DNA of 46,275 bases from positions 1 through 46,275 of the forward strand of contig JAKSIZ010000015.1 of NCBI GenBank assembly GCA_024398515.1, read 5' to 3'. Both the position numbers and the translations under genes were made by a program. This DNA comes from Bacteroidaceae bacterium (GTDB taxonomy: Bacteria; Bacteroidota; Bacteroidia; Bacteroidales; Bacteroidaceae). The notes below the pieces were generated by a model that saw only the letters and a program-made list of their open reading frames with translations, ran no database searches and was not told where the DNA came from. Positions 7,401 to 43,656 of the stretch are shown one piece after another. Position 1 is the stretch's first letter; each line of letters starts with the position of its first letter.

Positions 7401-7463
7401 AATACTGTAGCAGTTTTCACCTTAAAACTGTAGCAGTTTTCGATCGAAAACTGCTACAGTTTT
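7401..7463 (-). repeat. Three-unit palindrome array, copy 1 (inverted orientation)
   Basis: Units of the 17-mer AAAACTGTAGCAGTTTT type lie at 7401-7417 (one change), 7424-7440 and 7447-7463. Spacers are CACCTT and CGATCG. The last two units and CGATCG form a perfect 40-bp palindrome. It lies between convergent genes (fucosidase and ACT protein). T-rich sequence follows, so it could also end transcription. The rest of 7300-7573 holds no gene, only scattered GTTCGTGT-type motifs. Confidence 0.9.
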
Positions 7464-7573
7464 TTTTTGAGTTGAGCGCACGTGTTAGAAAAGTTGAACG
7501 TTCGTGTTCAGGACATCGAGCGTTCGTGTTTGAAAATTCGTGTACTCGGGTACTCGAATCTACGTATTTTCGC

Positions 7574-15093: not shown

Positions 15094-15259
15094 CACAATT
15101 TATTTTATATAACCGTCAAAATCGAATATATTTTTACGCTTTTGCGAATTTATTTGGCTTTTCCTCATCAGACGCTTTGCTTGCAAAGTTATCGCGAAAC
15201 ACTTTGTTTGTCGGGGAGTGACCTAATAGGCGATGAGCACTAAGCGTAGTGAGTGAAAA

Positions 15260-15322
15260 AAAACTGCTACAGTTTTCGATCGAAAACTGTAGCAGTTTTG
15301 ACTTGAAAACTGTAGCAGTTTT
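15260..15322 (+). repeat. Three-unit palindrome array, copy 2
   Basis: Units at 15260-15276 (AAAACTGCTACAGTTTT), 15283-15299 and 15306-15322 (AAAACTGTAGCAGTTTT) are separated by CGATCG and GACTTG. It sits in the 542-bp gap between divergently transcribed genes, far from either 3' end, so here it cannot be a terminator for those genes. Downstream flank sequence (AACGCTCGTCTTGAG) resembles that of copy 3. Confidence 0.93.
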
Positions 15323-15481
15323 CCCTCGATTATAACGCTCGTCTTGAGAAAGCATGACGCTCAACCGTTCAGGAAGTACAGAAGACTGCCAACGAAAAAA
15401 GCGGAAGAAACATTTTTTTTTGCAGAAATGCAACTTAACTTTAGCGCAGGAAAAGGGAAATGAATTTGGCAAAATGTTGTC

Positions 15482-17546: not shown

Positions 17547-17612
17547 CGTTATTTTTTTCTAATTATCATAGGATAGGTGGGAGAAATTACGGCAGTAACT
17601 GTCAGAACAATT

Positions 17613-17676
17613 CAACAATAAAAGCAAAAAACTTCGTCTTTTTCTTTGTATTGTCTTCGATAAGCACTAACGTTGA
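17613..17676 (+). repeat. Promoter-bearing repeat, upstream degenerate copy
   Basis: The 49 bp at 17613-17661 are identical to 17701-17749. Beyond that the copy continues AAGCACTAACGTTGAC, where the -7 box is TAACGTTG instead of TAACTTTG, so this copy is probably a weak or dead promoter. The repeat distance is 88 bp. Confidence 0.85.
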
Positions 17677-17764
17677 CTGCGTCGAAATTAGGCTGCATCT
17701 CAACAATAAAAGCAAAAAACTTCGTCTTTTTCTTTGTATTGTCTTCGATTTGCACTAACTTTGC
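17675..17764 (+). promoter_or_regulatory. Promoter-bearing repeat driving the helicase gene
   Basis: TTTG at 17733-17736, 19-nt spacer, TAACTTTG at 17756-17763. The whole stretch from GACTGC (17675) aligns with 43568-43656 upstream of the GH2 gene, including GCATCT, AACAATAAA, the pyrimidine tract and TGTATTG. The -7 box ends only 5 nt before the ATG at 17769, so transcription should begin at or next to the start codon. Confidence 0.8.
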
Positions 17765-20337: not shown

Positions 20338-20400
20338 AAAACTGCTACAGTTTTCGATCGAAAACTGTAGCAGTTTTGACTTGAAAACTGTAGCAGTTTT
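20338..20400 (+). repeat. Three-unit palindrome array, copy 3
   Basis: Units at 20338-20354, 20361-20377 and 20384-20400, with spacers CGATCG and GACTTG, identical to copy 2 over all 63 bp. It lies 66 bp after the secreted-protein gene and about 140 bp before the C10 protease gene. Flank AGCGTTCGTCCTGAG and ATCAACATTGTCG resemble copies 2 and 4. Confidence 0.93.
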
Positions 20401-20510
20401 CTTTCGGGTTTAGCGTTCGTCCTGAGTCATCAACATTGTCGCTTCTTTGCATCAAAGCGTAAAAACCCAAAAAAAAATTGTAAAAAGGCAATGAATACAA
20501 AAATTTTTTA

Positions 20511-20518
20511 TAATTTTG
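20511..20518 (+). promoter_or_regulatory. -7 element of the first C10 protease gene
   Basis: TAATTTTG matches TAnnTTTG, 21 nt before the ATG at 20540. No TTTG at the right distance upstream. Confidence 0.45.
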
Positions 20519-20539
20519 CAACCGATTTATATGTTTATT

Positions 20540-22852
20540 ATGAAAAAATTATTTTTAGCAGTTGCCTTATTGTCTGCATTGACTTGCGGTGCAACCATAA
20601 ATAAGGCAAACATGAAAGTCGCCTACACAGCAAAGACAGCTGGTAAGGTTGACTTCACAGTGTTAAACAAGGTCGGCGACAAGGGATTTGTTATTCTTGA
20701 CAGCCAAGACCAAGTGTTAGGCTATTCCGATGCAGGAACGTTCGACTACGACAAGATGCCTGAAAACCTCAAGTGGTGGTTGAGCCAGTATCAGGAGCAG
20801 ATTAACTGGGCTCGCACCAATGGGGTTCAAAGTCCAAAGTCCCAAGCTTTGAGCGACAGCGACTCCATCATCGTGCAACCTCTTCTGGGAGAAACAGAAT
20901 GGAGTCAAGACCTTCCTTTCTGCATTTACTGTCCGCCTGATGGTAAATATTACAGTGCTGTAGGTTGTGTGGCAACGGCAATGGCGCAGATAATGTATTA
21001 CCACAAATGGCCAATGAGGGGGCATGGGTATCACGAATATGAATGGAATGGTAATACGATTTCCCGCAATTTCAGTGAGTCAATATACGATTGGGACAAC
21101 ATGTTGCCGAAATATCGTAGTGGAGAATACACCGATGAACAGGGAAAGGCTGCTTCGAGATTGTGTGCCGATGCAGGTATAAGTGTTGATATGCAATACA
21201 CTGCCCGCGAAAGTGGTGCGGATTCAAGGGCAATGAAGTATGCTTTTGTGCGTAATTTCGGTTATTCTGCCAAGACTCATTACTTGGCGCAATTTAATAT
21301 GCCAAAAGAAAAATGGGACAGCGTACTCGTAGCAGAACTTGATGCAGCCAGACCTATTCTATATTGTGGTCAGGACGACAATGGGTATGGAGGACATGCT
21401 TTTGTGTGCGATGGATATACGCAAGAAGGCTTCTTCCATTTTAACTGGGGATGGAACGGAAGCGGAAACGGATATTTCAAGACTGGTGCGCTAAATGTAA
21501 GTGGATATAAATTTAACATTTTCAACGATATTACGATTGGAATAGAACCGCGTTCAACTGTACTTGTAGATGGACTGTGCTATGAAATAATGTCAGACTC
21601 AACAGTTGTGTTTACTTATAGGGATGATTCTGAATATACAGATTCTGTTGTTATTCCTGAGGAAGTGACTATTGATAGTGTGACATATAAGGTAAGCGGT
21701 CTGATTCCAGGATGTCTGTCGGAACAGGTGATTGCGCCTTCTATTCAGGTGCCGTGGACAACGCCTCCTGCTGCAGAAAGAGTATTCAGTGATTTTGTAT
21801 ATAAAAACACAGTGCTCATCGTACCGGATAATTGTGTTGAACTTTATGCAAATACTATAGGATGGGATAAGTTCTTGTGCATAAAGGATACTATCGGGCA
21901 TAGTTTTGAGTGGAGTGAATGGGAACCGTTTGATGATGGAAGAGGTACTTATATATATACTGCCAATTACTATTTTGATAAAGGTTTCAAAGACACAGAC
22001 ATGCCAATCTCAGTTAGAAAGAGTAAGACTAATGAGGGACAGTGGCAGTTCCGGCTTCTGCATTGGTCATACGATACCGACCTATATATTACCTATGATA
22101 GCATAACGGGAAACTGCTTCATTCCAAAACAATATGCAGGCTATGAAATTCTTATTGATGGTGTAGAGGCGTCAGTATATATTTCAGATGTTCCGAATTT
22201 CTCATCAAAATATACTTATGAGAAATATCCTTGCAAATATGATGCTGAAAAAGGTTTGTTTACATTGAATGTTATTTATCAGTGTGGTGGGGAAAATGAT
22301 GATGCATACAAAAATCATGGAGTGGAGACATTCCAGATTGATGGGTTTTTAACCGATATGTTTGCAATATATGATTACGACAAGACATTCGGCAAGAAGA
22401 TTGGAGTCAGAATCACGGCGGCAAACGGGATAAAGTCATGCAAATATGTTTTTGTGGAAGGCGAGATAAGTCAGGATTCGGTTGCTGTAGTGGCACAGCA
22501 GATAGCCGACACTCTCATTGAAAGCAAGACTGCCTACGTTGGCTTGTCAACTTACAAACCTGCTTCCGTAAGCAAGACTTACACAATGGTAATTGCAGGT
22601 TTCGGTAAGAATGGCGACTTCCGCAACTATACGTCAACGATAGTAAACTACAACGACATATATGATATGAAGCTTGGCGATGCTAATAAGGACGATGCTA
22701 TTGATGTCAGCGACATTACGACAACGGCAGCATATATACTTGGCAACAAACCAACCATCTTCAACCGTTTCTCTGCCGATATAGATAAGGACGGAGTCAT
22801 AACGGTTGCCGACATAACTGCTCTTGCGGCAATGATATTAGGAAACGAGTAG
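20540..22852 (+). CDS. C10 (streptopain-type) cysteine protease with C-terminal dockerin-like repeats
   Basis: 770 residues from ATG 20540 (ATG 20531 is also in frame). Signal peptide MKKLFLAVALLSALTCGA. A short propeptide/inhibitor-like part (KVGDKGFVILDSQDQVLGYSDAG) precedes the C10 domain, with Cys143 in AVGCVATAMAQIMYYHKWP and His286 in GGHAFVCDGYTQEGFFHFNWGW. A BspA-type segment follows (VLIVPDNCVELYANTIGW), then a beta-rich module beginning EWSEWEPFDDGRGTYIY (about 457-602). Two dockerin-like repeats close the protein (LGDANKDDAIDVSDITTTAAY and DIDKDGVITVADITALAAM). Secreted protease, probably activated by propeptide removal. It converges on a second C10 gene with a shared terminator. 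No cohesin is in the window. Confidence 0.93.
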   Translation: MKKLFLAVALLSALTCGATINKANMKVAYTAKTAGKVDFTVLNKVGDKGFVILDSQDQVLGYSDAGTFDYDKMPENLKWWLSQYQEQINWARTNGVQSPKSQALSDSDSIIVQPLLGETEWSQDLPFCIYCPPDGKYYSAVGCVATAMAQIMYYHKWPMRGHGYHEYEWNGNTISRNFSESIYDWDNMLPKYRSGEYTDEQGKAASRLCADAGISVDMQYTARESGADSRAMKYAFVRNFGYSAKTHYLAQFNMPKEKWDSVLVAELDAARPILYCGQDDNGYGGHAFVCDGYTQEGFFHFNWGWNGSGNGYFKTGALNVSGYKFNIFNDITIGIEPRSTVLVDGLCYEIMSDSTVVFTYRDDSEYTDSVVIPEEVTIDSVTYKVSGLIPGCLSEQVIAPSIQVPWTTPPAAERVFSDFVYKNTVLIVPDNCVELYANTIGWDKFLCIKDTIGHSFEWSEWEPFDDGRGTYIYTANYYFDKGFKDTDMPISVRKSKTNEGQWQFRLLHWSYDTDLYITYDSITGNCFIPKQYAGYEILIDGVEASVYISDVPNFSSKYTYEKYPCKYDAEKGLFTLNVIYQCGGENDDAYKNHGVETFQIDGFLTDMFAIYDYDKTFGKKIGVRITAANGIKSCKYVFVEGEISQDSVAVVAQQIADTLIESKTAYVGLSTYKPASVSKTYTMVIAGFGKNGDFRNYTSTIVNYNDIYDMKLGDANKDDAIDVSDITTTAAYILGNKPTIFNRFSADIDKDGVITVADITALAAMILGNE

Positions 22853-22928: not shown

Positions 22929-25694
22929 TTATTTGCCGAGGATGATAGCTGCTGTCTTTGTGATGTCGGCTACTGTGATTACTCCGTCGCCGTCAACATC
23001 GGCATTGTCCTTATTGAAAGGCTCTGGAGACGTGCCTAAGATGAATGCTGCAATTGTTGTGATGTCGGCTACATCAACATTTCCATCGTTATTGGCATCG
23101 CCTGCCATACCTTCAGGTGCAAGTTCCTTGAGTATTGTGTAAGTCTCAAAACCATACTCCTTGAATTTTCCACTCAGATAATAAGTGTCGAAGAAGAGTG
23201 TCTTCTTCTCAGCATCGTAATATGAAGCATCGCTACCTGACTTGACAGAACGATAGTCGTTGACAGTGACATCAACTTTCTTATAGACGAATGCCGTTTT
23301 CTGCTCTTCGAAGGAAACTGTTCCAGTCTCTGTGTCCCAATAGAAGAAGAACTCAGTGTCGCCGTACATCGGAGTCAGTTTCCAGTTCTTAGTGTTGTTC
23401 TTGTCTTGATATGCAACTACGTCGTTCTGTGTTATTTTCTCCCATATAGAGTATTCGTATGTGCCTTCATATTTTGCTATCCATTCAGGTTCTTTTGCGC
23501 TTTGGTACTCGAAGTTGAAGAAAGCAAACTCACGGAACTGCCCTTCCGGAGTCATGGAGACAACGGTCAGGGTGTATTTGTCAGGTTCGGTAAGTTGAAC
23601 CTTCAATTCGTGTTCTGTTGCGTATTCTGGTGTAATAGTGCCAGCTTTGATGCCGTTGGCAATAGTCTGTACATCGGTTTTAATCAGTGTACCAGCATTG
23701 ATAACGTAAGCATACTTCTTTACATCGTCGGTAAATGAAAGTATTCCTGTCATTTCGCCTTCCTCGTCAACCGTTACATCGTCGATAGCGATGTCGTAGA
23801 TTGGGAAGCCCGAGATGAGGAATTCATCTACGCCACGCTTAATCGTCATATTCTCGTAATGGTAAACCAGTGTCAGTGACAGCTTGCCTATCACTTCATC
23901 GAACGTACATGGAGAGTTCTTGTATGAGTTGTTTTTGTTGAATGTCGGTGCGTCGGCTACGTAAAAAACATGACCACTATACGTGGTGCCAAGATGCTGT
24001 TTTGGCACTGTACAGTTGTGGGTTGTGCTGTCGTGATTGACTATGAGTGACGACATCGTGCCGAAGTTGTCAATCTTAAACTGCTGAGCATTCCCGTCGG
24101 ACAGCAGGTAACGGCTTGCTACTGGCGACTCTGATGCCTCGTAGAAATCCTTGTATGAGTAGGTGTAAGTGCCGAATCCGTCTTTCACAGGCTCCCACTT
24201 CGACCACTCGATAGAGTCATTACCATCGGTAATTTTGTGGAATACCGACCAAGGGAAAGCATTCTTGTAAGTATCGAACATACCAGCAGGCACGTGGAGT
24301 GTTGCATTATCGTATGCAGTGTTGTCGAAGATTGTCGTAAGGAAGTCCTTAGGTGTGTCGCCTTCAATCGTTACCGAAGTCAGTTTGCTGCAATTGATGA
24401 TTGAATTGGCTGCAATGCGCTCAATAGTCTCTGGGATGACAAGCGATGTTATATTGGTATATTCAAAAGCCTTAGGACCTATATCCGTGACGCGATATTC
24501 CTTTTCGTCGAGCACGACAGTTGAAGGGATAACGATGTCACCAGAGTAAATGCTCTTTGTTGAGAATGTCACTTCGACAGTCTCATCGCCCAGGATGTTG
24601 TAGCATAGGCCATCAACCATATTTTCTGATCTGTTAGGTGCAATGCCGATAATGGCCTCTTGGCTATCAGTGAATGAGCCGGCAACGGCAGGTGTAAAGT
24701 AGCCGTTTCCCATGCCTGACCAGCCGAAGTTGAAATGGAAATAGCCGTTAGAGTCGAATCCGTCAGCGACGAAAGCGTGACCACCGTCGGTGTTGTTGCC
24801 GCTATAGATTACCACACGCCCCGCTTCAAGTTCTGTCTTCAGCATAGTTCCCCAAGAGGTCTGAGTGTAAGCTCCACGATATACATACTTCGTACTCGTC
24901 TTATAGCCAAAATAGTTTTTCAGTGCCGAAGCAATAGAATTTGTGTATGCGCCACTGGCGTCAGAACTATAGTACATAGACACGGAAATACCACAGTCGT
25001 ACATCAGTTGTGCAACAGCATTTGCCTGCTCTGCAGTGAAATCATGATATTGTGGCATCATCTTGTCCCACTGGTAATGTGACTTGGAGAAATCGGCACT
25101 CAGAGTCTGTCCATTCCATCTGTAAGACTTAGAACCAGTGCCGACCAACGGCCATTTGTGATAGTACATAGTCATTGCCATTGCTGTGGCAATACAGCCG
25201 GTAACGCACCTACCTTTGTTATCAATAGGGCAAAGACGGTTGTAAGGGTCGCCCTGGTCCCAGGTAATCTCACCGAGTAATGGCGAAATCACTGGCACAG
25301 GTGCTTTGGCTGACTTAGGGAGAATGGACTTCTCGCCCGTTGCACGCAGGTATTCTATCTGGTCCTGATAGCCTTTCAGCCACATCTTGGCATTCTCTGG
25401 CAGTTTGTCGTAGTCGAACGAACCGCTGTCGGAGTATCCGAGTATGATTCCTTCAACAATATCATCGGCTGCAACGATAACGAAACCATTATTGCCCGAC
25501 TTGTTGAATACATAGAAGTCGCGGTTTACGGTCAACGGCTTGTCTGGAATTGCCGTATAGGCAAGTTCAAGGTTTTGATACGCTTTTACGAAACTTTGTT
25601 TTGCAAGGCTTTGAGCCTCTGTGACGCTGATTACTTTAGCCTGCAAGGCAATTGCAGAAAGTAAAACAAATACGAGTGATAAAAATTTTTTCAT
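22929..25694 (-). CDS. C10 (streptopain-type) cysteine protease with BspA-like repeat and dockerin
   Basis: 921 residues. Signal peptide MKKFLSLVFVLLSAIALQA, then a full inhibitor/propeptide domain (VISVTEAQSLAKQSFVKAYQ to ILGYSDSGSFDYDKLPENAK, about 21-103). C10 domain: Cys167 in VTGCIATAMAMTMYYHKWP, His306 in GGHAFVADGFDSNGYFHFNFGW. BspA-type leucine-rich segment (FEYTNITSLVIPETIERIAA, about 410-470). Two related beta modules start at EWSKWEPVKDGFGTYTY (about 494) and EWIAKYEGTYEY (about 740). The C-terminal dockerin pair is AGDANNDGNVDVADITTIAAF and DVDGDGVITVADITKTAAI. Paralogue of the convergent C10 gene, but with a complete propeptide and one more beta module, so this locus grew by duplication and divergence. 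Confidence 0.94.
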   Translation of the reverse strand: MKKFLSLVFVLLSAIALQAKVISVTEAQSLAKQSFVKAYQNLELAYTAIPDKPLTVNRDFYVFNKSGNNGFVIVAADDIVEGIILGYSDSGSFDYDKLPENAKMWLKGYQDQIEYLRATGEKSILPKSAKAPVPVISPLLGEITWDQGDPYNRLCPIDNKGRCVTGCIATAMAMTMYYHKWPLVGTGSKSYRWNGQTLSADFSKSHYQWDKMMPQYHDFTAEQANAVAQLMYDCGISVSMYYSSDASGAYTNSIASALKNYFGYKTSTKYVYRGAYTQTSWGTMLKTELEAGRVVIYSGNNTDGGHAFVADGFDSNGYFHFNFGWSGMGNGYFTPAVAGSFTDSQEAIIGIAPNRSENMVDGLCYNILGDETVEVTFSTKSIYSGDIVIPSTVVLDEKEYRVTDIGPKAFEYTNITSLVIPETIERIAANSIINCSKLTSVTIEGDTPKDFLTTIFDNTAYDNATLHVPAGMFDTYKNAFPWSVFHKITDGNDSIEWSKWEPVKDGFGTYTYSYKDFYEASESPVASRYLLSDGNAQQFKIDNFGTMSSLIVNHDSTTHNCTVPKQHLGTTYSGHVFYVADAPTFNKNNSYKNSPCTFDEVIGKLSLTLVYHYENMTIKRGVDEFLISGFPIYDIAIDDVTVDEEGEMTGILSFTDDVKKYAYVINAGTLIKTDVQTIANGIKAGTITPEYATEHELKVQLTEPDKYTLTVVSMTPEGQFREFAFFNFEYQSAKEPEWIAKYEGTYEYSIWEKITQNDVVAYQDKNNTKNWKLTPMYGDTEFFFYWDTETGTVSFEEQKTAFVYKKVDVTVNDYRSVKSGSDASYYDAEKKTLFFDTYYLSGKFKEYGFETYTILKELAPEGMAGDANNDGNVDVADITTIAAFILGTSPEPFNKDNADVDGDGVITVADITKTAAIILGK

Positions 25695-31389: not shown

Positions 31390-31469
31390 GTTAGCATTTG
31401 CTGACACGAAATGTAGTCTGCCATGACACGAACGCTTGGCTTTTATAAAACGAACGTTTTGCATGAGAA

Positions 31470-31532
31470 AAAACTGCTACAGTTTCCGATCGAAAACTGT
31501 AGCAGTTTTGAAGTGAAAACTGTAGCAGTTTT
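31470..31532 (+). repeat. Three-unit palindrome array, copy 4
   Basis: Units at 31470-31486 (last base changed T to C), 31493-31509 and 31516-31532, with spacers CGATCG and GAAGTG. It lies after the terminator and about 260 bp before susC. Flanking ATCAACAATGTCG and AAAGCGGAAGAA are shared with copies 3 and 2, so the repeat element is longer than the three units. ACGAACG motifs precede it (31428-31458). Confidence 0.93.
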
Positions 31533-31683
31533 CGCCCGAGTATAAATGACGTCTATAATAATCAACAATGTCGTTGTCACAAAGCAAAGCGGAAGAACCC
31601 TTTTTTTAGTCAATACAATGCCCCTACAAAGCCCACTTTTAGTTCTAATGTAGCACGTAAAGACTAATTTTAGATTAAAAAAA

Positions 31684-39264: not shown

Positions 39265-40692
39265 ATGAAGTATTTTTACGTTAAAGTAATGCTGTTTGTG
39301 TGCGCATTCGCACTTTCGGCAAACGCTAATGCAGCTGAAAAGAAACTGCCAATCAATCCTGCTACTTTTACAAAGTTCCAGATTGGTAACAAGATTGGCG
39401 AAAACTATGAGATTACAGGTATCTATGCAAAGCAAGTAAAGAAAGGTCCTAAGACAGCCACTAACGATTGGATACCAAAGGAAGGCTGGGAACCATACGA
39501 AGGACCTAATGGCACATCAGCAGGTAATTACATCCGTACAAATGAAGACCACGGACTCGTTGATCCAGGTGAAATCCACTGTAATATCTATACACAAAAG
39601 ATGGCTGAAAACCCTGATACATCTTACTTCAAGATTGAAAACTTCTTTGGCCTGATTCACAAAAATCTTAAAGATACGACTAAAATAGATACAACCCTCG
39701 TATCATTGTATTTCAAGTGTAACACTAAGACAGGTCAGTGTGTAGTCCCTGTTCAGGATATGGACCTCTTCATTTCTGTAATAAACAGAACTACAGGCGA
39801 CACTTATGAACTTGAGTGCTACCTTGGCGACGTTCCTGAGTCATTGGGTACGCCTCAGACATATTATAATTATTACCCATGTGAAGCAGACTTAGACTAT
39901 GGTTTGTTCACTTTCAATCTCTACTACTTCTGTGAAATGGGTGGCTTCGGTCTTTCCGAAGAAAAGTTCCTCATGGATGGTTCAAAACCTGAATGGACAG
40001 AATGGACAGAATGTGGAACTGCAGAATACACTCATGGAATGATGGTAGATGAAGAAGAAGGCGAAACAGGATTGCAGGAAGATATCGTTGTCTATAAGCG
40101 TATCTACAATCCAGATCCAAGAGTATGCGAGTACTGGTTTGAAGAATGGGGCTCTGGTTACTGGACGAGATCTGGTGTTGACTTCATCGTTCATATCAAT
40201 GCTAACGGAACCATCTCTGTTGATGAGCAGTTGACTGGTGGTACTGAGACTGACGAGGAAACTGAAGAGGAAGTCGATATATATGTGCAGGATCTTGTTT
40301 CATTCAACTCTGAAACATTCCTTCCTGAATTCTGTTCATCAACATTCGATGCAGCGACAAAGACTGGTACTATATATCCTTTCTATTACTACTACACAGA
40401 TCCAGACGCAGGTCAAGTAAGTGGTTGGCCTGGTAAGTATCCTGATGGCGCAGGTGGTTTCGATGACCGATTCAGCGATGTATTCACTATTCATGAAACT
40501 GCTCCACAAGGTCTCGTTGGTGATGCCGATGAAGATGGAAGTGTAACAGTTGCCGACATCACAACTACTGCATCTTACATTCTTGGCAACAATCCAGAAC
40601 CATTCAACTTCGATAATGCCGACGTTGATGGTGACAAGGCAATTACTGTATCCGACATCACTGGCATTGCAGGAATTATCTTGGGTAACTAA
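39265..40692 (+). CDS. Secreted protein with two beta modules and C-terminal dockerin
   Basis: 475 residues. Signal peptide MKYFYVKVMLFVCAFALSANANA. Two modules begin DWIPKEGWEPYEGPNG (about 68) and EWTEWTECGTAEYTH (about 243). The second matches the N-terminal module of the 1778-residue protein: WGSGYWTRSGVDFIVHINANGT here against WGAGFFTASGVDILLNWN there. The dockerin pair LVGDADEDGSVTVADITTTAS and DVDGDKAITVSDITGIAG ends the protein. No catalytic motif, so likely a binding or scaffold protein of the same secreted set as the two C10 proteases. Own promoter and strong terminator. Confidence 0.85.
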   Translation: MKYFYVKVMLFVCAFALSANANAAEKKLPINPATFTKFQIGNKIGENYEITGIYAKQVKKGPKTATNDWIPKEGWEPYEGPNGTSAGNYIRTNEDHGLVDPGEIHCNIYTQKMAENPDTSYFKIENFFGLIHKNLKDTTKIDTTLVSLYFKCNTKTGQCVVPVQDMDLFISVINRTTGDTYELECYLGDVPESLGTPQTYYNYYPCEADLDYGLFTFNLYYFCEMGGFGLSEEKFLMDGSKPEWTEWTECGTAEYTHGMMVDEEEGETGLQEDIVVYKRIYNPDPRVCEYWFEEWGSGYWTRSGVDFIVHINANGTISVDEQLTGGTETDEETEEEVDIYVQDLVSFNSETFLPEFCSSTFDAATKTGTIYPFYYYYTDPDAGQVSGWPGKYPDGAGGFDDRFSDVFTIHETAPQGLVGDADEDGSVTVADITTTASYILGNNPEPFNFDNADVDGDKAITVSDITGIAGIILGN

Positions 40693-40754: not shown

Positions 40755-40932
40755 GTCGGACACCAATAACCTGTAATATACTTTTAGTCTTTTATAACTC
40801 AAACTCTCTACACCTATCCCAAGCCAACAACCCAAAACCGATAACCCATAGCCTAACTTCATTTATATTGTAGGAATGCGTCGGCCAATGTGAGCGCAGT
40901 CGTTTCTCGGTACAAGCATTAAACCCTTTTGC

Positions 40933-40993
40933 ACATTCTTAGAATGTTCACGTGAACATTCTAAGAATGTTAAGGCGAACATTCTAAGAATGT
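40933..40993. repeat. Three-unit palindrome array, second sequence type
   Basis: 15-bp units at 40933-40947 (ACATTCTTAGAATGT), 40956-40970 and 40979-40993 (ACATTCTAAGAATGT). The first spacer TCACGTGA is itself palindromic; the second, TAAGGCGA, is not. The period is 23 bp. Outer flanks also pair (CTTTTGC before, GCAAAAAG after). The architecture equals that of the AAAACTG arrays although the sequence is unrelated. Confidence 0.92.
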
Positions 40994-41187
40994 GCAAAAA
41001 GGATAAAAGCACGTCCAAACCAACACCACCGTCCATGCCCACCGACCATAACGAAAGAATCTCGAAAAAAGTTAAGAAAAAACATGTGTCCGCTAAACAT
41101 CCCAAACATATTATATCAATACACGATATTTAAGGATACGCCATATATGAGCAATTTTCTGCGCTCCGGAGGAGCAACATGCTAATA

Positions 41188-41382
41188 GCCCAGGGCAGAG
41201 CGAAGCGACGCCCTGGGTATAATGATGCAGACTATCTACGCTCTGTAAGAGCAAAAGCATTTATACGCGATGCAACTATAAAGCTTTTGCTCTTACAGAG
41301 CGTGACATTTGTGACATACGCCTTACCCAGGGTGTCGCCTTGCTCTGCCCTGGGCTGATAGGTGTAAGCCTTTCAGGCTATA
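41188..41382. repeat. Inverted pair of REP-like repeats (copies c and d)
   Basis: The arms 41238-41258 and 41283-41303 are perfect 21-bp complements (core GCTTTTGCTCTTACAGAGCG). Outside them GCCCAGGGCAGAGCG (41188-41202) pairs imperfectly with 41341-41355. Copy d continues into TGTAAGCCTTTCAGGCTATA. Together they could fold into a hairpin of about 165 nt. A small GCTCC-GGA-GGAGC hairpin (41163-41175) is adjacent. No gene lies in 40755-41477; spacer between features is unremarkable. Confidence 0.85.
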
Positions 41383-41403
41383 ATTTAGCGGACACCAATA
41401 ATA

Positions 41404-43567: not shown

Positions 43568-43656
43568 GACTGCAAGAACGTAGGTTGCATCTTAACAATA
43601 AATATAAAAAACTATGTCTTTTATTTTGTATTGTTTTCGATTTGCATTACCTTTGC
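43568..43656 (+). promoter_or_regulatory. Promoter-bearing repeat driving the GH2 gene
   Basis: TTTG at 43625-43628, 19-nt spacer, TACCTTTG at 43648-43655. The stretch from GACTGC (43568) aligns almost end to end with the helicase promoter at 17675-17764, including the pyrimidine tract and TGTATTG. Upstream at about 43517-43531 a TTACCTTTGACGGTGTCG segment resembles the degenerate copy at the helicase locus. Confidence 0.8.

Follow-up and report, generated by a model that had tools for sequence, protein, structure and literature searches.

The locus at positions 15260-15322 of a 46,275-nt stretch of DNA from a Bacteroidaceae bacterium (the window, meaning that whole stretch) carries three 17-bp near-palindromes at a regular interval, and it raises the question of whether such an array is a mobile repeat, a transcription signal or a site at which several protein dimers could bind side by side. 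A sequence-only reading had reported four arrays of this kind in the window, and a search for the unit AAAACTGNNNCAGTTTT with up to two mismatches confirmed them by returning 12 matches against 0.34 expected, a number reached in none of 100 shuffles. The description also held for the period of 23 bp, the CTA and TAG centres, the CGATCG spacer, the mismatch in the fourth copy and the 63 bp over which copies 2 and 3 are identical, and the gene contexts given for the four arrays (convergent, divergent and two tandem) agreed with the open reading frames. The flanking similarity was real as well, consisting of inverted arms of about 45-50 bp. The inventory was incomplete, since a second word with the same layout, at 40930-40998, had been missed. 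We refer to the first word as family A and to the second as family B. The features are listed below, the arms with the E values obtained in the window from an arm profile built from arms of the source genome, the right arm of array 2 among them.

7401..7463, minus strand: array 1 of family A, made up of three 17-bp near-palindromes with a period of 23 bp
7467..7509, plus strand: weak arm beside array 1 (E 0.14)
15260..15322, plus strand: family A array 2, the focus of this study, with units at 15260-15276, 15283-15299 and 15306-15322 and spacers CGATCG (15277-15282) and GACTTG (15300-15305)
15326..15369, plus strand: right inverted arm of array 2 (E 1.3e-6)
20338..20400, plus strand: family A array 3, same as array 2 over 63 bp
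20402..20444, plus strand: right arm of array 3 (E 0.028)
31422..31468, minus strand: left arm of array 4 (E 2.1e-6)
31470..31532, plus strand: array 4 of family A, whose unit 1 has one mismatch
31536..31576, plus strand: weak right arm of array 4 (E 0.95)
40889..40925, minus strand: weak A-type arm beside the family B array (E 0.22)
40930..40998, plus strand: family B array, three ACATTCT-N-AGAATGT units at 40933-40947, 40956-40970 and 40979-40993, period 23

Other repeats also occur in the window. A promoter-like repeat of the TTTTTCTTTGTATTGTCTTCGATTTGCACTAACTTTG type is present in three copies (17612-17763 and 43592-43655), and of the 46 matches in the related genome G489, 34 are short hits to this repeat; an intergenic repeat, TGCCCTGGGCTGATAGGTGTAAGCCTTTCAGGCTATA, with long inverted repeats occupies 249-470 and 41182-41402. 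At 20516-22852, 22929-25694 and 39265-40692, Spi inhibitor domains accompany two C10 peptidases, and type I dockerin domains occur in three proteins.

The nearest named relatives of its fructose-bisphosphate aldolase gene come mostly from MAGs of Prevotellaceae or Bacteroidaceae, several of ruminant origin, which suggests a Prevotella-type gut bacterium as the source. The source genome (G000; 90 contigs totalling 2.65 Mb, completeness 88%) contained far more than four copies. Family A units with at most one mismatch numbered 230, against 2 for a reversed control, and two-unit matches with at most two mismatches numbered 151, against 0, from which we estimated roughly 79 family A arrays with a mean size of 2.9 units. 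Family B accounted for about 26 arrays (51 two-unit matches, control 0). Three units were present in 57 of the 61 family A groups in the loci examined, the remainder being one pair and three single units, and in 25 of the 27 family B groups, with one pair and one single unit. A third word of the same genome, AACATTG-NNN-CAATGTT (family G), was found through its arms, which are of the A type, as three units at 23 bp at L433:1988-2050 and L434:1395-1457; no further family G array occurred in the own-genome loci examined or in 299 other loci. Among the 16 perfect arm matches listed in the source genome, 13 adjoined known family A arrays as judged by coordinates, one was split from such an array by another repeat and two flanked family G. 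Families C and E belong to the relative G489 and family F to Prevotella sp. P3-122. The pitch was exact in all 212 steps measured, at 23 bp in families A (115/115), B (51/51) and F (30/30) and at 22 bp in family E (16/16).

The perfect 40-bp palindrome formed by two adjacent units, described for the window, is present there, but across family A the combination of CTA with CGATCG is a minority variant. In 57 aligned rows, six of which were later removed as mis-registered to leave 51 arrays, the commonest core was TAG-GGATCG-TAG-GACTTG-TAG (11 rows), all three centres were TAG in 31 rows, and units 1 and 2 formed a perfect 40-bp palindrome in only five.

Comparison with the consensus showed where the core is conserved. 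The inner 15 bp of the family A units were changed at 6 of 2295 positions and the outermost pair at 23 of 306, against 57/306 and 55/306 in the two spacers, while the arms differed from consensus at 33-46% and the distant flank at 63% of positions. Family B had no change in 900 unit bases, with 9/160 and 31/160 in its spacers, and family F had 27 changes in 810 unit bases, with 48/144 and 38/144 in its spacers; overall, 0-3% of unit bases were off consensus in these three families as compared with 6-33% of spacer bases. In family E the unit arms were changed at 5 of 728 positions, and at least nine spacer sequences were found among 26 two-unit stretches. This constraint is not explained by copying or conversion of the whole core, because the spacers sit between the units and would have stayed alike. 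The loci were gathered by word patterns that tolerate few mismatches, which favours intact units and misses strongly decayed arrays, most units lying well below the tolerance, and the invariance of the units could partly reflect recent spread.

The centres of the 153 family A units were TAG in 123 and CTA in 30, with no others, and there were 29 one-sided changes, none being compensatory or two-sided. Inversion of the centre makes no difference to the site of a symmetric dimer, and the orientation-free centre together with the one-sided changes fits a two-fold symmetric site in double-stranded DNA better than a hairpin. The CTA centre mostly came with a C at the start of the spacer (12 of 16 rows), which helps to complete the 40-bp palindrome; flipping of the centres may have occurred by template switching inside the palindromes.

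Alignment of family A returned a conserved 63-bp core between two inverted arms, whose outward consensus was TTTCGAGTATAAnGnTCGTYC followed by AAAGCCAAACGnTCR. The information content was near 1.5 bits per base within the core, dropped to 0.3-0.75 over the initial 40 bp of each arm and was below 0.1 by about 60 bp, the conservation of the arms declining outward with no sharp outer terminus. Self-similarity of the arms peaked at a shift of 22 bp in families A (0.394, 102 arms), E (0.55, 11 arms from G489) and F (0.365, 29 arms from Prevotella sp. P3-122), the means being 0.256-0.272; as the A and E arms are homologous and the F arms are not, the 22-bp phase represents two independent cases. No covariation was detected between the arms of an array, own arms being as complementary (0.418) as swapped ones (0.418), with 481 of 1000 swaps reaching the own value. 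An arm pattern matched 69 times in the source genome against 1 for the control, and at most six times, in line with controls, in each of the other 248 congeners, although the arms of G489 are too diverged for this pattern to detect. The flanks of family B resemble those of family A (left-flank consensus tGAgCgtTtaAgtCGTTTGC), and at one locus of the source genome the arms flank a single unit.

A separate repeat, GTCGCTGCGCTTGGTG...CGACGCAAGCGTCGATGACTT, was observed between array and arm at five loci of the source genome (L022, L031, L034, L037 and L043). It abuts 6 of the 51 family A arrays, with several tandem copies in one locus, and it occupies the inner side in place of a unit in 5 of 72 distinct arm hits. 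This repeat appears to insert at the junction of array and arm, leaving the units intact.

The position of the arrays relative to genes was then considered. Ten of 57 arrays had first fallen in mechanically called ORFs, and spanning ORFs shorter than 450 nt were treated as spurious. The 51 family A arrays were found in tandem (30), divergent (11) and convergent (6) gaps, at contig edges (3) and at an ORF start (1), as compared with 9 tandem, 5 divergent and 4 convergent array-free gaps of at least 160 bp in the same loci, so that no clear orientation preference emerged. The occurrence of arrays in all three kinds of gap argues against a pure terminator role, as the sequence-only reading had held from four arrays.

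Conservation in relatives gave a divided result, as the exact word was not found while the architecture was present in some of them. None of 300 other sampled genomes of the family, 21 of which are congeneric, contained the family A word, its exact two-unit pattern had no match in genome_contigs (84,980 species, the own genome possibly left out), and viral contigs contained no exact two-unit match to A or B. Of 398 congeners, G489 matched the aldolase region best (89% over the aldolase gene and 73-82% over other blocks), and it carries two families of its own. Family E (AAGTTTT-NN-AAAACTT, with a 22-bp step) gave 27 two-unit matches against a control of 0 and had none in G000. Its units are framed by arms homologous to the family A arms, and of the 11 groups counted five had three units and six had two, one of the latter being cut by unknown bases. 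Family C (CACACCT-N-AGGTGTG) forms groups of 4-5 units in steps of 23-24 bp and has no recognisable arms. Prevotella sp. P3-122, recorded under that name and not as a MAG, carries family F (AAGGTTA-N-TAACCTT, with a 23-bp step; 99 two-unit matches over the whole genome against a control of 0), whose arms differ from those of family A and whose groups comprised 15 of three units and two single units. A further genome, G406, had one AGAAAAC-ATC-GTTTTCT array at 22 bp in 100 kb.

A generic array detector, for which shuffle nulls gave 0, found one array, that of Prevotella sp. P3-122, among 80 named aldolase loci (1.40 Mb), and no array in the 100 kb examined from each of G005, G033, G299, G560, G352 and G587, nor in G301 (102 kb) or the 28 aldolase loci from congeners; as it recovered four of the five window arrays, and 39 family A arrays against 57 triples by word counting, its negatives are not exhaustive and its array counts are lower bounds. 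The array class looks sporadic among the relatives sampled, most of which appear to be without arrays. Three individual loci were also recorded: a doubtful array in 100 kb of G022, a member of another genus, with three TTCTTGCGCAAGA-like units spaced by 22 bp (L079:13975), perhaps a further word or chance; A-like arms with E-type units cut by the contig start (G489, L114:38); and A-like arms around a different palindrome, AAAAAAAGTTAACTTTTTTT (G489, L111:8326).

We then compared the genes that border the arrays in different genomes. Four of the 28 proteins neighbouring family E arrays in G489 were orthologous to neighbours of A or B arrays in the source genome, with the orientation agreeing in every case, whereas other G489 ORFs used as control gave 0 of 74 (p 0.005); a first control had given 3/85, all in loci picked by homology to the window, and the final comparison omitted those loci. 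A partial 81-aa match between an E neighbour and one of the own genome was dropped by the coverage rule, and two further neighbours seen at the nucleotide level (L278/L188 and L279/L001) were not counted in the ortholog comparison. The distances between array and gene in the four shared pairs were 313/295, 173/179, 529/226 and 172/79 bp, and in the two pairs examined the DNA beyond the arms hardly aligned except for one promoter stretch. Family F neighbours shared no gene with A or B neighbours (0/29, control 1/52), and family C shared 1/13, on the other side of the gene and in a locus chosen by homology. The positions that E arrays share with A or B arrays possibly reflect common descent, and insertion into favoured gaps is possible too. 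In a comparison of the window with G489 for empty sites, synteny was broken and the intergenic DNA hardly aligned.

The sequence-only interpretation is partly supported; both of its proposals, a mobile repeat and a multi-dimer protein site, survive. The element is a high-copy repeat with a word private to the species, and within its core each unit is conserved separately. A spreading repeat is indicated by the copy number and the private words. Several dimers side by side are indicated by a pitch that stays exact while the spacers drift, by the constraint on single units and by the symmetry of the centres, and the evidence together suggests that the element may be both at once. Copy number, pitch, unit-level conservation, centre inversion, arm phase and the occurrence of different words in one frame are direct observations. 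Our reading, held tentatively at somewhat below an even chance, is that the arrays are putative docking stations for a dimeric DNA-binding protein, borne on a dispersed MITE-like repeat. The carrier would be a non-coding, intergenic repeat of about 150-160 bp on which one homodimer would bind each near-palindrome, so that three dimers, probably cooperative, would lie side by side at a pitch of exactly 22 or 23 bp (about two helical turns), in the geometry of three-site phage operators. The inverted arms may hold further, weaker sites in the same phase, onto which the complex could spread. The likeliest role would be chromosome organisation or that of a roadblock or insulator rather than control of particular promoters, since arrays lie in all kinds of gene gaps. 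The 22-bp phase of the arms, the different words in one frame and the four neighbours that E arrays share with A or B arrays also speak for docking. Against docking stand the private word A, which resembles the words of mobile repeats, the small number of shared positions, the two-unit groups of family E and the 4-5 units of family C.

The strongest rival, possible although somewhat doubtful, is a non-autonomous mobile repeat of MITE or REP type, the palindromes of which would act as hairpins or transposase sites and the conservation of which would reflect recent amplification. High copy number, inverted arms, a word not found in the 300 other genomes sampled, an exact two-unit pattern without a match in genome_contigs, a solitary-unit version with arms and several words in one set of arms all suit such a repeat. 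However, its conservation does not peak at the ends but declines towards them, the core spacers diverge while the units do not, and a search for Y1 transposases gave little: the source genome, 88% complete, gave one partial match with a stop and no A or B unit in its locus, and none of the four intact genes in G489 (78% complete) is flanked by arrays, one having a C array about 1.6 kb away. The third word, family G, supports a shared frame but leaves the balance as it was, because it does not separate a protein site from a mobile repeat. A functionless minisatellite born of replication slippage, like the 23-nt BrickBuilt repeats of Porphyromonas gingivalis, is improbable: the pitch and intergenic setting are shared with BrickBuilt, itself predicted to form stem-loops (PMC4596501), but slippage gives variable unit numbers, whereas three units predominate here, and the spacing never slips though the spacers diverge. 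A structured RNA or bidirectional intrinsic terminator is the least probable, for although, on the minus strand of two arrays, a hairpin of 18 pairs precedes a T run and the strands fold far better than shuffles (z -6.22 for DNA, -6.79 for RNA), as any palindrome would, divergent genes border 11 of 51 arrays, own arms pair no better than swapped ones, compensatory changes are absent from 153 units and the window has no Rfam match.

Returning to the docking stations, the word differs between species and within one genome inside similar arms, and sites and proteins would therefore probably change together; we read the three-dimer binding site as a word exchangeable within a frame that is kept. 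A stronger version, which we consider unlikely, is that some 100 chromosomal binding stations had their word replaced between species and families in concerted co-evolution with their proteins, while architecture, arms and some positions were kept. Dispersed palindromic repeats are commonly regarded as mobile debris; if proteins bind these arrays, gut bacteria would have a new binding system of genome-wide extent, and nature would offer a case in which proteins and some 100 sites shift specificity together.

No described repeat family matching the element was found in the open-licence literature. The BrickBuilt MITE of P. gingivalis (PMC4596501) has intergenic 23-nt repeats (1 to 22.8 repeats, 19 copies), a leader of up to 285 nt, a tail of up to 318 nt, IS5-type ends and predicted stem-loops. 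The arrays share with it the intergenic 23-nt tandem repeat, a conserved and a variable part in each unit, inverted flanks and restriction to a species; they differ in layout, with mostly three units, about 79 and 26 arrays in families A and B, and arms that are symmetric and phased at 22 bp. In the window the IS5-type end GAGACCTTTGCA was not recovered as a feature of the arrays, giving 7 matches with at most two mismatches against 4.5 expected, one of which, with two mismatches (15182-15193), lies 67 bp from array 2 and outside its arm. As for MITEs in general, the element has inverted arms, each about 45-50 bp long, which fade at the outer end; target-site duplications and empty sites could not be delimited in an element without sharp ends, the intergenic DNA of the relative hardly aligning.

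REP and BIME repeats associated with RAYT are likewise high-copy intergenic palindromes with species-specific words, and REP repeats bear an unpaired GTAG or CGTC tag at the stem foot (PMC3733652). The arrays differ in having no such tag, a fixed tandem pitch and no linked RAYT found. On inspection, the feet of the palindromes are A-runs or variable spacers, GTAG occurring only across the family A loop, and no Y1 gene was flanked by arrays where examined in G000 and G489; membership was rejected. A D-type unit with two mismatches near the Y1 match of G686 was taken as chance.

The operators of phage lambda are spaced at 23-24 bp. The arrays resemble lambda OR/OL in comprising three dyad-symmetric near-palindromes of about 17 bp at a fixed pitch of about 23 bp, lambda having six 17-bp operators (PMC4997575); the arrays differ in occurring in about 100 chromosomal copies, in the near-identity of their sites and in having no repressor gene known. 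Another analogue is the stoperators of mycobacteriophages, where one repressor is reported to stop transcription at numerous genome-wide sites; those are asymmetric and lie in phage genomes, whereas the present sites are symmetric, triple and placed in a bacterial chromosome.
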